Position numbers and translations under genes: made by a program
Shown here: one piece after another, positions 55,464-61,846 of the stretch
How positions within the stretch are numbered: position 1 is the first letter of the stretch
Layout: every line of letters starts with the position of its first letter
Notes under the pieces: model-generated
The model's input: the letters and a program-made list of their open reading frames with translations, nothing else
Databases searched by the model: none
What the model was told of the DNA's origin: nothing
Assembly (NCBI GenBank): GCA_028713895.1
Contig: JAQTNH010000001.1
Span: forward strand, 1 to 61,846
Direction: 5' to 3'
Source of the DNA: Candidatus Nanoarchaeia archaeon
Lineage (GTDB): Archaea; Nanobdellota; Nanobdellia; CSSed11-243R1
Length of the DNA stretch: 61,846 bases

Positions 55464-56390
55464 ATGTATGTTGAGAAAAGGAAGTCCGGAAACAGCACAA
55501 AGTACTACCTTGTTTACTCTTACAGGGAACTGGGTCATGTCAAAAAGATAAGGAAATATCTGGGCCAGAACTTAAGCAAAACAGACCTGGAAAATGCAAA
55601 AAAAGAGGCCAGACAACAGATAAAAAAGCGCATTGTTGACATTGCCACTGATGTTTTCAGGTTTTCCCTGACAAAAACACAGATTAAGCGCCTGAACAAG
55701 TATAATGATAAAATCGGGATTGTTCATCTCAACAAAGAGGAATGGGACGAATTTACCAAGGCATTCACGTACAACACAAATGCCATTGAGGGCTCAAGAG
55801 TCAGTCCTGATGAGGTCAGGGCAATACTCAAACAGCAGACAGCCAGAACACCTGATGAGATTGAAACAAAAGGGGTTGCAAAAGCAGTCCAATTCATAAG
55901 AAACACAAAGGAAGAGCTTTCACTAAACCTTATAAAAAAGATACATATGATTTGCTTTAGGGGCTCCAAAAAGTTTGCAGGCGAATTAAGGCGAGTGGAT
56001 GTCGGCGTTTTTGACAGCCAGGGCAGGCTTGTACATCGGGGAGTGGATGCTGAGCATATACATCTCGCACTTTTAGATTTGGTTTCCTGGTATAAAACAA
56101 ACAAAAATAAATTCAGACCCCTTGTTTTGGCGGCAATCATCCACAACCAGTTTGAATACATTCATCCTTTTGAAGACGGCAACGGAAGAGTAGGGAGGCT
56201 GCTGCTTAATTTTATACTGATCAAGAACAGATATCCTCCGATAAACATCTCTCTGGAAGACAGAGCCGAATACTATAACACCCTGCAGGAATACCAAAAC
56301 AGAAACAATCTGCTGCCAACATTAAAATTCTTAATAAAACAGTACAAAAAGACGCTGAAGCTTGTGCCCACAAAACGAAGAAAACGCTGA
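55464..56390 (+). CDS. Fic-domain protein (putative AMP/UMP transferase)
   Basis: 308 residues. The Fic motif HPFEDGNGRVGR (234-245) is complete, including the catalytic His and the phosphate-binding GNGR. Residues 105-110, TNAIEG, match the (S/T)xxxE inhibitory motif, so activity is probably restrained by the protein's own N-terminal part. The first 60 residues are basic and carry RKSGNSTKYYLVYSY, a segment seen in archaeal and bacterial Fic proteins. Fic enzymes transfer a nucleotide to a target protein; the target is unknown. Matching dyads flank the gene. Confidence 0.92.
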   Translation: MYVEKRKSGNSTKYYLVYSYRELGHVKKIRKYLGQNLSKTDLENAKKEARQQIKKRIVDIATDVFRFSLTKTQIKRLNKYNDKIGIVHLNKEEWDEFTKAFTYNTNAIEGSRVSPDEVRAILKQQTARTPDEIETKGVAKAVQFIRNTKEELSLNLIKKIHMICFRGSKKFAGELRRVDVGVFDSQGRLVHRGVDAEHIHLALLDLVSWYKTNKNKFRPLVLAAIIHNQFEYIHPFEDGNGRVGRLLLNFILIKNRYPPINISLEDRAEYYNTLQEYQNRNNLLPTLKFLIKQYKKTLKLVPTKRRKR

Positions 56391-56687: not shown

Positions 56688-57041
56688 TTACTGCGTTCCT
56701 TGTATCCCTATTATTGCAGAAGTGACATAACCCCATTGGTGGTTTTTCCGGGCGTATTTGTCAGTGAATGAAACCGCGATGTAGTCCCCAATAGTCGGGG
56801 CATGATAACTGGTTTTAATCCTGTACTCAAGGTCTTTTTTGAATTTCGGCTTTGACGAATCAGGGCATGAAGCGCGAAAAATCAAGTAATAGTCCTCAAT
56901 AAGAGCGCTGATTAAATTAATTTTTGCGGATTTTTCTCCAAAAAAGAACATGCCGTCCTTAACCCAGTATTCATTGCCATATTCACCTATGAATGTCTTT
57001 CCCTCGAAATCCCTCCACATAATCCCGCGTGACAGTTTCAT
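56688..57041 (-). CDS. Uncharacterised protein
   Basis: 117 residues, beta-rich with several aromatic residues (MWRDFEGKTFIGEYGNEYW; YYLIFRASCPDSSK). It precedes the tRNA-Tyr/Asp pair on the same strand. No known family is recognised. Confidence 0.65.
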   Translation of the reverse strand: MKLSRGIMWRDFEGKTFIGEYGNEYWVKDGMFFFGEKSAKINLISALIEDYYLIFRASCPDSSKPKFKKDLEYRIKTSYHAPTIGDYIAVSFTDKYARKNHQWGYVTSAIIGIQGTQ

Positions 57042-57096: not shown

Positions 57097-57504
57097 TTAC
57101 TTAGTATCCAAAATGTCAGTTATCTCTGAAAACGCACGATATGTCCAGAGGGTTCTGCCGTTTTTGTCTTTGCTGTTAAAGCCGAGGATTAACAAAAGCC
57201 CTGGCTCTGGCTTTTGCCCATATTCGTTTATTAGCTCGTCCAGAACAGGCAGATAAAGATAATGCTTGTCTATGCTTTCTGAAAATGTGTATTCCCCTTT
57301 TTTCCAGTGCTTGAATCTTTTACTTGCATTGGTTGTTTCGAAATTCTCTTTTTTGAGCGCAGCAATCCTGAACAGTTTCCCCTCTGTACTGTTTGGGCAC
57401 ATGAGGTCAATTACAGTCCCGTCTTTTTCTATTGCATAGCCCAAGTTTTTTGTTTTTATAGTCTTTCCAAAATAAGGCGCAAGGTTCCTGCTTTCGTATG
57501 CCAT
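57097..57504 (-). CDS. Uncharacterised protein
   Basis: 135 residues, mixed strands and helices (GYAIEKDGTVIDLMCPN; PGLLLILGFNSKDKNGRTLWTYRAFSEI). Together with the 117-residue gene 55 bases downstream it may form a two-gene unit. No known family is recognised. Confidence 0.65.
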   Translation of the reverse strand: MAYESRNLAPYFGKTIKTKNLGYAIEKDGTVIDLMCPNSTEGKLFRIAALKKENFETTNASKRFKHWKKGEYTFSESIDKHYLYLPVLDELINEYGQKPEPGLLLILGFNSKDKNGRTLWTYRAFSEITDILDTK

Positions 57505-57653
57505 TTAAGATAAACACCAATAAAATAAAGAAAAATGGATTTTAAAACATTTTTGAGATTCTATTTATAAGTCACTACTAAAAAGTAGCGAAAGAGCAAA
57601 GGTTTATAAAGAGAGTTGGATTCTTTAGTATACAGATAAACTGGGGTGGAATA

Positions 57654-59135
57654 ATGGACCATAAAAAGAAGATTAGAGAGGTTATAAATTTTGTAAATGC
57701 TAATTTCATCGCGGAACAAAAAAGGAGTATCTTCAATCCAGGCGTGCCGTTAAGGCAGATTTTGGATGAAAAGTGCGAATTAGACGCTTCAGAAGCGCAG
57801 AAATTTGTCACAATAACCACAACTCTCGCTTATCTTAATTCTATAATGGGCAATAATACATTGCTTAAGGGTGAATCGGGAACAGCAAAGACACAGCTCT
57901 GCAAGACAATTGCAAGCGTGTTATACCAGCTTCCTATTGAGTTCATGGATTTGGAAAGAATAGCAGGAACCCCAAAGACCACAAAAGAGGACATTTATGG
58001 AAACATAAACCTTGGAAAACTTACAAAAGAAGGGAAGGTTGTTCCGTTTTTATACCTGCCATTCTATGCTCCAATGGTAATAATTGATGAAATCAACAGA
58101 TACACACCATTTGAACAGAACATAATCAGGGACGGAGTTTCAGAAGGAGTCTGGAAGATTTCCGGAATCCCAATTGAGATTGCAAAACAGTCAGTAATGT
58201 CTGCTATGAACCCAAGTAACTATGACGGAGTATGGCCGCTCAACGAGAACCTGGCAGATAACTTCGCATTGCAGCTCCAGAATCCAATCTATAACATCGT
58301 ATCACACAACAAAATAATCAATAACAGCAGGAAAAACCTGAAGGCTCTCCTTGGAGATAAAGAAATCACAAACCAGATTGAAAAATTCTATGAAGAGAAC
58401 AAGGAAGACCCTGAAAAGATGCAAAAATTCATAATTGAAAAAACAAAAGACATGAAAAAGATCCTCGAGGAAAGAGATGTGCCGTTTATTGCAAATGGAA
58501 GCATAGATGAAATACGCACAGAAATCTCAAAACAGCCATTCGGCGCTGAAACAAAGCTTATCGAATACATGCTTGTTTCAGAGATGGAGCACAGCTACAA
58601 ATACGGGGAAAACAGAAGCGAGGACCCGAAATCTGATGAAACACACGATATGAACTATGTTTCAACAATGCTGCAGAGGCCATTGAAAGGAAGATTTGTC
58701 ACAGACATGGAAAATATAGCAAAGGCAATTTCATGGTATATGAACGAAAAAAATGTAAGCATTGACGCGCTTAAAACAGCATTTGTATATTCAACTGCAC
58801 ACAGAATAAAGCCTGAAACAGACCTTGAACAGGAGATTCTAACAGAAAGAAAACATGACGGGGAACCCTCATGCTATACACCTATGCCTGTAGAATATGA
58901 ATGCGCAAAAAAAGTATTTGAAAAGGCATACGAACACTACAATGACTTCAAAAATAATGATAAAGACACAATGTATGCTCTGCGAAAGGGCATAAAGATT
59001 CTTACAAAAGATGAGAAAGGAAGCTATGCAGATGCAAAAAAACTCCTAGACAGAGTAGACCATCCAATAGCAAAACGTGTACTGGATGATATTGCAGAAA
59101 GCAAACTGAAAGAACTTGGGATTGCTGGGGCCTAA
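57654..59135 (+). CDS. MoxR-type AAA+ ATPase
   Basis: 493 residues. Walker A GESGTAKT is at 73-80 and Walker B VIIDEINR at about 141-148, followed by the sensor region VMSAMNPSNYDG. This is the MoxR/AAA_5 group, hexameric ATPases that work with a VWA-domain partner to remodel or activate protein complexes. An added helical part (about 225-330) is longer than usual. TATA (gtttataaag, about 57601-57610) and GGGGTGG before the ATG give it its own promoter. The VWA partner gene follows at once. Confidence 0.92.
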   Translation: MDHKKKIREVINFVNANFIAEQKRSIFNPGVPLRQILDEKCELDASEAQKFVTITTTLAYLNSIMGNNTLLKGESGTAKTQLCKTIASVLYQLPIEFMDLERIAGTPKTTKEDIYGNINLGKLTKEGKVVPFLYLPFYAPMVIIDEINRYTPFEQNIIRDGVSEGVWKISGIPIEIAKQSVMSAMNPSNYDGVWPLNENLADNFALQLQNPIYNIVSHNKIINNSRKNLKALLGDKEITNQIEKFYEENKEDPEKMQKFIIEKTKDMKKILEERDVPFIANGSIDEIRTEISKQPFGAETKLIEYMLVSEMEHSYKYGENRSEDPKSDETHDMNYVSTMLQRPLKGRFVTDMENIAKAISWYMNEKNVSIDALKTAFVYSTAHRIKPETDLEQEILTERKHDGEPSCYTPMPVEYECAKKVFEKAYEHYNDFKNNDKDTMYALRKGIKILTKDEKGSYADAKKLLDRVDHPIAKRVLDDIAESKLKELGIAGA

Positions 59136-59163
59136 AATTATCCAACCCTTGAGGCGAGATAAA

Positions 59164-60927
59164 ATGACAGACCTTAAACCTTCATTTGAGCGGGTAAAGA
59201 CAAATTATAGAAGGCCTCCTGTCAAAGGACCAAGAGAGATGAAGGAAGGCACTGCGCTGATAAACCTGCTTGACTGCGAGGTATCAATAAACCCAGAGTT
59301 TGCAGAAGAGCTTGCCGCAGTAAAAGGCATGGATATTGAAACAATTCTCGAAGGGCTAAATGAACATGAGTTCGGACACTATATGGAGTTCCCACGGAAC
59401 CTTTCAATGAATATTTTCCTTAGTTATAAAGCCCAAAAAAAATATGGCGAAAATGCAGAGGATGTTCACGGCTTGTTTATTGATGTAATAGACAACTGCC
59501 TTGTTTATGACAGCGGAATAAGCCAGAACGACGGCCTGAAAAAGCTAATGGAAGCATCTTTCAAGAAATTGCAGGAAAATCAGTTAAGCTCAACTGCAGC
59601 TGCAATGGCCCTGGTTTACAAGGACAAATTGTGCATTGATATTGATATTGACCTGTCCCAGTTTGACAATAAAGAGGACATAGAAAAAGCAGTGGAACGA
59701 ATCAATGGAATGACAATACGTCCGGTAGAAGATTACGGGCTGCAAAGCTCACAGTTAATCAGGTTTGGAGATGCAATCGAACCCCTGCTTAAGCATGATG
59801 GAAAGAATAAACAAAAAAGAAACGGTTCAAACGGCAGTCCTGATGAAGGAATGTACATAGACAAAGAAGACATGGAAAAAATGAGCTCAAATGAAAAAAA
59901 GGCAATTGTGGATGCAGTCAAAAAACTTTCAAAAAGCCTCCCGAAAAGAATTTATGATGAAATATCTGAAGAATTCCTTGATAACAAAAAAGTAAACCCT
60001 AAAAAAGGTTCTGGAATCGGCAGGGGAAGTACAGACACAGGATTCGCAGACGCAAAAACAATCGAATACTACAGAACTGTTGCAAAGGAATTCGGCATTT
60101 TTATACGCCCGAAAAAGAAACTTGCCGAAGACAAAACTGAAATACCAATGCATATGACAGGATATTCCCCATCAACTCCAATCAACAGGGCACGATTTGA
60201 GCATTCGGGCGGAATGATAATCCCTGGAATCACAAAAGCTATAGAGGATATTGAGATTCCATGCGTTGCAAAAAAGGACTTTGTCCCGCGACTGCTCATC
60301 TACAAGGACGTATCAGGAAGCATGGCTGACCCGCGTGAAACTAAGGATTATGCAACAATTGCAGCTGCAATATTTGCACTGTCATACAGGCGAAGCGGTG
60401 CAGAAGTAGGGGTAAGCCTTTTTGATGACGGTTCAGACGAGCTTGTTTTCAGCAGAAAGGAGGACGAACTTCTTTCGGTATTATGCGGATACAAGGGCGG
60501 GGGAACTGAGATAGACATGGAAAGGCTGAAAAAGGATTTGGAACTCAGCGAAAAACGTTCATACATTAACAGCATGTCAGAAGAAGAAATCAAAAGGAAC
60601 CCTATGATGCGGGCGTATCTCAAGAAAAATGCGCGATTGAGCACGCCTCCAAGCACAGAGAGTTCCACAGATTTTGTGATAATCACAGACGGAGGAATCG
60701 GAAACCTAAGCGAGGTGCTGAATTTCCTCAGGGAAAACCCGCAGTACAGGCCGACAATAATCCACACAGGCGACTTTGGACTGGACATCCCAGGATATAA
60801 CGGGGAAACTGGAGTTTACGAAGGAGTCCAGGTGCTGAAGGCAAACAACAGGAAGGACATAGTTGATATTGCAAAGGGAAGCGTAAAGCGGAACCTTCTT
60901 TCAAAATACTATGTGGGCAGGGATTAA
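59164..60927 (+). CDS. HExxH-motif and VWA-domain protein, MoxR partner
   Basis: 587 residues. The N-terminal part has LNEHEFGHYMEF, an HExxH motif at 68-72, within a helical domain that also carries VHGLFIDVIDN. This layout recalls DUF2201-type proteins, which join a putative metallopeptidase and a VWA-like domain. The C-terminal VWA domain has an intact MIDAS motif, DVSGS at 382-386, and IITDGG near 506. A Ser/Asn/Gly-rich basic linker lies at about 210-230. The start is ATG 59164 with GAGGCGAGAT before it; the frame opens 16 codons earlier inside the ATPase gene. Confidence 0.88.
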   Translation: MTDLKPSFERVKTNYRRPPVKGPREMKEGTALINLLDCEVSINPEFAEELAAVKGMDIETILEGLNEHEFGHYMEFPRNLSMNIFLSYKAQKKYGENAEDVHGLFIDVIDNCLVYDSGISQNDGLKKLMEASFKKLQENQLSSTAAAMALVYKDKLCIDIDIDLSQFDNKEDIEKAVERINGMTIRPVEDYGLQSSQLIRFGDAIEPLLKHDGKNKQKRNGSNGSPDEGMYIDKEDMEKMSSNEKKAIVDAVKKLSKSLPKRIYDEISEEFLDNKKVNPKKGSGIGRGSTDTGFADAKTIEYYRTVAKEFGIFIRPKKKLAEDKTEIPMHMTGYSPSTPINRARFEHSGGMIIPGITKAIEDIEIPCVAKKDFVPRLLIYKDVSGSMADPRETKDYATIAAAIFALSYRRSGAEVGVSLFDDGSDELVFSRKEDELLSVLCGYKGGGTEIDMERLKKDLELSEKRSYINSMSEEEIKRNPMMRAYLKKNARLSTPPSTESSTDFVIITDGGIGNLSEVLNFLRENPQYRPTIIHTGDFGLDIPGYNGETGVYEGVQVLKANNRKDIVDIAKGSVKRNLLSKYYVGRD

Positions 60928-60928
60928 G

Positions 60929-61762
60929 ATGACTCTTTCAACAGCACAAGCTAATTTCGGGCTGGAAGAGCTCGCTAATATAGATGGTGGCATAAAGAAC
61001 AAAGGGAAGCATAACGAGAATAGCATGACTGAGAAGCTGATGGGTGCTTATGAAGGCATAGTATATGACAAAAATTTAGGATATCTTACTCATACACTGA
61101 ATTCAGAAATAGACAATAGTCTATATTCTTATTTTACAAAGAATAAAATTGAGTATTCAGAGCAGGACATTTCTGATCTGGTTGAATACGCAAACGTAAA
61201 TGATTTTGATAAGAAGGATGTGTTTGGATTCGGGGCTTATGTTGGTTCTTTGATTTCAATGCTCACTGAAAAGAACGAGAAGCTTGGAAAGCATACTATA
61301 ATAGAGATTCCTGAAAACCATTTGGACTATCTGGGAAATAAATGTGAGAAATTTGATGTTGTCAAAATAGGGGTAAATTATGGAAGTGGTGCTTTTGCAG
61401 GCGCGAGAAAAGGAAATCTGCTTTATGTTGAAGACTGTAAAGGGAACCTGTTTGCTTATGGTGCGGGCACACGTGGTGGAAATATTAAGATGATTATTGG
61501 GACAAATGTAAGTGGGGATGATTTTGCTTATTGTGCTGGTAGAGAAAGTGGAAATATTGGGGCAATTGTCGGAGTAAATGTAAGCGGATTAAGTTTTGCT
61601 GACTATGCTGGCAATGATGATGGAAAGATTGGCAAGATTCTAAAGAACTCACGAAAAGCTGACATTGAATACAATAAAATTGTTGATGAACTAAACAAAG
61701 AGTACAACCTTGGATTGCAACAGGTCAAAGTAAGAGAACCAATAGAGTGTGGTGAATCCTGA
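60929..61762 (+). CDS. Glycine-rich repeat protein of the MoxR/VWA operon
   Basis: 277 residues. A helical N-terminal part (about 1-140) is followed by about four units of 24 residues (146-237), for example LFAYGAGTRGGNIKMIIGTN and DFAYCAGRESGNIGAIVGVN, likely a beta-solenoid. The ATG lies two bases after the VWA stop. The N-terminus MTLSTAQANFGLEEL is matched by the next gene. No known family is recognised; a substrate or structural partner of the MoxR/VWA pair is an inference. Confidence 0.8.
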   Translation: MTLSTAQANFGLEELANIDGGIKNKGKHNENSMTEKLMGAYEGIVYDKNLGYLTHTLNSEIDNSLYSYFTKNKIEYSEQDISDLVEYANVNDFDKKDVFGFGAYVGSLISMLTEKNEKLGKHTIIEIPENHLDYLGNKCEKFDVVKIGVNYGSGAFAGARKGNLLYVEDCKGNLFAYGAGTRGGNIKMIIGTNVSGDDFAYCAGRESGNIGAIVGVNVSGLSFADYAGNDDGKIGKILKNSRKADIEYNKIVDELNKEYNLGLQQVKVREPIECGES

Positions 61763-61846
61763 TGACTCTTGCAGCACAAGTAAAATTCGTGGAGGAACTG
61801 GGTGGGATAGCCCCAGAAATACAGCAAAAAGGGACACATCGGGAAG
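61762..61846 (+). CDS. Paralog of the repeat protein, 5' end only
   Basis: The stop of the repeat protein overlaps a new ATG (TGATG). The 28 codons in the window give MTLAAQVKFVEEL then GGIAPEIQQKGTHRE, which lines up with MTLSTAQANFGLEEL...KGKHNE of the gene before it. So the operon continues with a second member of the family beyond the window. Confidence 0.75.
   Translation, partial: MTLAAQVKFVEELGGIAPEIQQKGTHRE

Follow-up and report, generated by a model that had tools for sequence, protein, structure and literature searches.

The stretch of DNA analysed here, referred to as the window, comprises the first 61,846 nucleotides of a 956-kb contig. The contig comes from a tiny-genome DPANN archaeon, whose genome (1.07 Mb) is about 90% complete. 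At its right-hand end lies an operon in which a gene for a MoxR-type ATPase, a gene for a protein carrying both an HExxH motif and a VWA domain (referred to as the core protein) and genes for four paralogs with a common N-terminal tag follow one another on one strand. The features are as follows, with positions beyond the window given on the contig.

57596 to 57610, plus strand: candidate archaeal promoter read from the sequence, a BRE-like GCAAAGG followed by TTTATAAA, some 45 bases ahead of the ATG of MoxR
57654 to 59135, plus strand: MoxR AAA+ ATPase, 493 amino acids
59164 to 60927, plus strand: HExxH-VWA core protein, 587 amino acids
59365 to 59379, plus strand: HEFGH motif, residues 68-72
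59482 to 59484, plus strand: Asp107, candidate third zinc ligand
60307 to 60321, plus strand: MIDAS motif DVSGS (DxSGS), residues 382-386
60505 to 60507 and 60688 to 60690, plus strand: Thr448 and Asp509, the residues completing the MIDAS
60929 to 61762, plus strand: tagged paralog 1, 277 amino acids, with tag, helical domain, solenoid and C-terminal helix
60929 to 61015, plus strand: N-terminal tag of paralog 1, residues 1-29, predicted to be disordered
61298 to 61645, plus strand: solenoid repeats of paralog 1, residues 124-239
61762 to 62664, plus strand: tagged paralog 2, 300 amino acids, of which the window holds 61762 to 61846, the remainder continuing on the contig
62664 to 63566 of the contig, beyond the window: tagged paralog 3, 300 amino acids
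about 63563 to 64588 of the contig, beyond the window: tagged paralog 4, about 340 amino acids

The spacings given in the first-pass annotation were reproduced from the ATG codons at 59164, 60929 and 61762, namely 28 bases between the MoxR and HExxH-VWA genes, one base between the latter and paralog 1, and a one-base overlap between paralogs 1 and 2. At least two paralogs had been claimed and there are actually four, rightward extension of the contig having added two (300 and about 340 amino acids), so that the series does not end with the pair seen first; a whole-genome search revealed no copies beyond these four. The strand switches downstream of paralog 4, and scans of the operon for bacterial-type promoters and terminators stayed at or near shuffled expectation. 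Upstream, on the same strand, sequence reading recognised a 308-residue protein with a Fic-like motif, HPFEDGNGRVGR (55464-56390), and two small ORFs on the minus strand between this gene and MoxR (56688-57041 and 57097-57504) matched no Pfam family over cut-off. An empty-site test via the flanks found no syntenic empty site, the same-family genomes mostly holding distant homologs of the flanking genes.

The ATPase matches PF07726 (AAA_3) with 42.5 bits against a cut-off of 27 (E 7.6e-11), and its Walker A and B residues K79, T80, D145 and E146 are invariant in 8 homologs, which identifies it from sequence as the MoxR AAA+ ATPase that had been proposed. The other PF07726 match in the genome (L005 6933-8975, contig 130932-132974), considered as a second MoxR, reads as an MCM helicase, and the protein of the window seems to be the sole MoxR of its genome.

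For the core protein, whose best start is the ATG at 59164, the earlier claim that a single polypeptide unites HEFGH with an intact VWA MIDAS is borne out by an alignment of 33 homologs from the class of the window. HExxH is kept in 31 of them, the other two reading HGxxH with loss of the catalytic Glu, and the position of the third ligand downstream of HExxH, whose conservation in homologs had been in question, is acidic in 32/33 (Asp in 28, Glu in 4). All five MIDAS residues (D, S, S, T and D) are invariant in 33/33. The two HGxxH proteins, from loci L087 and L088, retain both His residues and the acidic ligand and are apparently catalytically dead; L087 nevertheless has tagged neighbours. 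A structural model of the core protein (pLDDT 82) matched VWA structures in the PDB by Foldseek, the best being NorD of the MoxR complex NorQD (E 1.8e-4), and the Pfam family VWA_2 (PF13519) was found in 5 of 9 core homologs, whereas no peptidase family of Pfam appeared at a meaningful level in the 9 scanned. Sequence and model together thus point to a VWA fold with a MIDAS, and HExxH with its third metal ligand predicts a metallopeptidase of the zincin type. A similar pairing is known from DUF2201 (PF13203/PF09967), which has an HExxH domain and a VWA-like domain and is often encoded near MoxR genes. None of 9 core proteins matched PF13203 at E values up to 1, and no match exceeded the cut-off in 141 genomes of the class.

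Paralog 1 was modelled with a pLDDT of 84.5, except for residues 1-29, where it falls to about 40. A helical domain (33-118) is followed by the solenoid (124-239), built with one strand per repeat, and by a C-terminal helix; the 24-residue repeats described from the sequence are visible, e.g., GNIKMIIGTNVSGDDFAYCAGRES, with the 24-residue period in the later repeats. Comparison of this fold with the PDB gave no significant match, the weak ones including leucine-rich repeat (LRR) proteins. Among the four paralogs of the window, the tag is slightly more conserved than the body (identity 0.61 vs 0.54), and identical tag residues share their codons at about the random rate (0.45).

The core family was detected in 31/378 genomes of the class at E 1e-6 and was absent from five same-family genomes searched, which marks the system as accessory. 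Phylum-wide and class-wide scans drew only the class of the window, and low-sensitivity searches for relatives in phages, plasmids and IMG/VR found none. A more divergent HExxH-VWA branch (L126-L137), with weaker or undetected MoxR similarity, also comes with tagged sets (e.g., IIGDKxKSxFDPDLAREINEK and VLGQRTRKxNIDYGLAERLN), and the system is therefore wider than the family counted.

The significance of the shared N-terminus becomes clearer in these relatives. The gene neighbourhoods of 51 core loci were read, and 29 of them contain at least two neighbours with a common N-terminus (20 by alignment and 9 by reading), such as MPIDDxLxxLE, LHRxxEDIVxQYEGLVSADAAERQ, MPLNELxGIEKREKKE, MDLxDLIKRIGIKPTNKRNEAL, and MTIKTLKPLDFGNRRVLTTEEALAQLEGYVPEK. 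The N-terminal similarity is therefore not confined to the two proteins seen first, related tags occurring in other genomes. One to a dozen tagged proteins accompany each core, and BLAST sorts their bodies into more than a dozen groups. When tag similarity was scored over the first 28 residues, pairs from one locus or genome whose bodies differ reached a median of 44, with 67% scoring at least 40 (n=66), whereas proteins with the same body at different loci remained at background (median 18, 7%, n=597), as compared with a median of 17 and 0.5% for unrelated pairs (n=3441). Since this test used genes preselected for a common N-terminus, it was repeated on all members of the core operons, where a score of 40 or more was reached by 32/185 pairs lacking body homology vs 0/149 in control operons of the same contigs (Fisher 2.6e-9, a nominal value, as pairs within one locus are not independent). 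The signal of the all-member test comes from three loci (L090, L087 and L077); a fourth that carries its tag on different bodies in the first test, L092, lies outside the operon definition.

Identical tag residues are written with identical codons at rates of 0.53, 0.37 and 0.41 in L090, L087 and L077, respectively, where 0.41 is expected. A rate so near to random argues for selection on the peptide itself and against recent copying, and the same applies to the four paralogs of the window. The tag also exceeds the body in identity in most of 19 loci compared (e.g., 0.61 vs 0.34, 0.74 vs 0.31, and 1.00 vs 0.46), and in L034, L074, L080, L085 and L093 the tags are nearly identical in DNA too, owing to recent duplication. 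Between loci, core and tag similarity correlate in a Mantel test (r 0.48, p 0.0002), a result driven by a few close pairs, with the Spearman correlation not significant, and it is given no weight in what follows. In the relatives, the tag is thus, as judged from these comparisons, a real module that follows the locus and not the protein body. The proposal that the shared N-terminus acts as a recognition tag accordingly gains strong indirect support there, from unrelated bodies under one locus-specific tag, near-random synonymous sites and predicted disorder, while the window itself supports it less strongly.

The bodies beneath the tags are of several kinds. In L039 and L096, leucine-rich repeat proteins are among the neighbours of the core. 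Nine loci of eight genomes (L040, L075, L080, L082, L093, L129, L131, L133 and L134) bear the signature of a diversity-generating retroelement (DGR), in which a template repeat adjoining a reverse transcriptase gene matches repeats in neighbouring genes. Between template and variable repeats, 80-100% of the mismatches affect one and the same template base, which is A on the DGR strand. An RVT_1 match confirmed the reverse transcriptase genes of L040, L075, L080, L082 and L093, and those of L129, L131, L133 and L134 were recognised solely from where they lie and from their sequence likeness. Variable repeats occupy the 3′ ends of tagged genes that flank the core on either side, one template serving two to four targets, and two control stretches contained no DGR repeats. 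No PDB chain, AvpA included, matched the DGR targets by sequence or profile; their position and the known folds of DGR targets (PMC5006420) would suggest a C-type-lectin fold. The genome of the window, about 90% complete, gave no RVT_1 match, no DGR was found in it, and its receptors are presumably fixed. The DGR reverse transcriptases at L080 5435-7090 and L093 6652-8307, two copies in one genome, carry a C-terminal HTH_40 domain. Tyrosine-recombinase-like genes, recognised by sequence reading, are located near the DGR-bearing loci L080, L093 and L129 and are a hint of mobility.

These observations are best accommodated, at a probability of about 0.5, by a plug-in receptor system, in which tagged cytosolic receptors would deliver what they bind to a single MoxR/zincin-VWA machine for processing. 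The motor core would consist of a MoxR AAA+ ring and a VWA partner with a built-in metallopeptidase domain, and each core would be supplied with several small cytosolic receptor (adaptor) proteins. A flexible, locus-specific N-terminal tag would anchor the receptor to the core, with an acidic residue probably engaging the VWA MIDAS in the manner of Rsa4 and Ytm1 on Rea1, where the MIDAS binds an acidic residue of the ligand that completes the metal site (PMC6624252); it is from this analogy that we infer the docking site. The variable scaffold would bind the ligand, by a solenoid here and by LRR or DGR-hypermutated C-terminal domains in the relatives. As for the direction of action, ligand binding would cause the motor to pull on the complex, so that the ligand is fed to the HExxH site or the putative peptidase is switched on; MoxR rings are reported to work on the VWA partner by means of a finger in the pore (PMC13036017). 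If each core recognises its own set, similarity of tags within a locus and divergence between loci are to be expected. Counting against the plug-in reading are the tag of the window, which is only slightly more conserved than the body, the missing RVT_1 in its genome, the origin of the all-member tag signal in just three loci with non-independent pairs, and the two homologs without the catalytic Glu.

The first-pass annotation had instead envisaged a dedicated maturation system with several clients. In such a system, the tagged proteins would be remodelled by MoxR together with the VWA protein, the peptidase would trim the tag, and the mature products would act elsewhere, for example in host contact. 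Known MoxR/VWA pairs such as NorQD do activate clients (PMC13036017; PMC9976466), and a disordered N-terminal tag would suit trimming. However, the bodies are ligand-binding scaffolds (LRR, solenoid and DGR-hypermutated C-terminal domains) in which no enzyme or cofactor site was recognised. They thus resemble receptors or adaptors supplying the machine with targets, not enzymes in need of activation, and their fold changes completely between loci, which is unusual for clients needing one maturation step. Maturation is therefore not favoured; it is possible, though rather unlikely, and ranks second to the adaptor/receptor model.

The tag might also be an address signal for export, surface display or compartment loading, with the core assembling a surface or particle structure for host contact, and a symbiosis role has indeed been suggested for DPANN DGR proteins (PMC5006420; also PMC10907252). 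Reading of the sequences makes this improbable, since the tags are short and polar with no obvious hydrophobic segment, the core proteins have neither signal peptide nor membrane segment, and no transporter gene consistently adjoins the operon in the neighbourhoods read. That the shared N-terminus is a mere trace of gene duplication, with no recognition role, would fit the closeness of tag and body identities in the window, but elsewhere one tag sits on non-homologous bodies, exceeds the body in conservation and is written in near-random synonymous codons; already weakened by these cross-locus data, such an explanation is quite improbable.

Returning to the plug-in receptor system, its likely role would lie in genetic conflict, where it would recognise and neutralise molecules that are foreign or hostile. 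What makes this role the most likely one is the mixture of scaffolds (LRR, solenoid and hypermutated), together with the patchy distribution, the recombinase-like genes and the likeness to bacterial MoxR-vWA-DGR sensors; interaction with a host cell or symbiont is a possible alternative. No effector gene or PADLOC family was recognised, and among known PADLOC defence systems the best match was mad8, with E 0.01 on the ATPase of the window, the others being weak. A more tentative and broader reading is that DPANN archaea may possess a receptor-based, immune-like machine, in which a short locus-specific tag connects interchangeable recognition proteins, a subset of them subject to hypermutation through reverse transcription, to one motor-peptidase, in the way that substrate adaptors connect to the proteasome or a ubiquitin ligase.

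Several characterised systems share parts of this architecture. Bacteria have MoxR-vWA ternary conflict systems, in some of which the vWA protein is fused to a DGR sensor (Kaur et al. 2020, PMC7159879; Dore et al. 2024, PMC10907252). These VMAP/iSTAND systems likewise combine MoxR, vWA and variable recognition modules, some of which are DGR-diversified sensors, whereas the present one is archaeal, its vWA protein has an HExxH domain, and its receptors are separate, several per locus, under a common N-terminal tag. The scanned operon proteins of the window gave no VMAP or iSTAND match in Pfam or NCBIfam, bpMoxR (E 0.0086) staying below cut-off. Judged by its genes, the system resembles the bacterial MoxR-vWA sensor systems but appears to differ in its core and in its modular tags.

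NorQ/NorD and other MoxR/VWA chaperone pairs (PMC13036017) share the MoxR ring and a VWA partner with a DxSxS-T-D MIDAS, and the VWA domain of NorD is the closest PDB match of the core model. NorD is, however, not described in that paper with an HExxH domain, and NorQD has one client, compared with one to a dozen tagged proteins here. Rea1/Mdn1 with Rsa4 and Ytm1 (PMC6624252) is an AAA motor in which the MIDAS grips an acidic residue of a client domain and serves as a working analogy for tag docking; unlike the present system, it consists of a single giant protein of eukaryotic ribosome assembly, whose client uses a folded UBL domain and not a disordered tag, and detailed homology is not proposed.

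AvpA-type archaeal DGR variable proteins (PMC5006420 and PMC4372165) are similar in that the DGRs of DPANN/Nanoarchaeota diversify orphan proteins, but an ATPase or vWA context is not mentioned in the searched text of these reports. A 2024 study (Dore et al., PMC10907252) found no link to conflict domains for the DPANN DGRs it examined. Within the open-licence literature, no paper describing tagged MoxR/zincin-VWA loci was found. In the present loci the operon of a MoxR/zincin-VWA core includes DGR targets, and in homologous operons elsewhere the tagged position is taken by LRR, solenoid or helical proteins. No cellular partner has so far been known, to our knowledge, for the DGRs of DPANN archaea. 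The purpose of the hypermutated proteins becomes testable through what the tag binds, and one core with many exchangeable adaptors would be a new architecture for MoxR-VWA machines. Three loci (L079, L121 and L124) have MoxR and HExxH-VWA cores with different neighbours and no evident tagged paralogs, L079 resembling L121; the core may work in another context there too.
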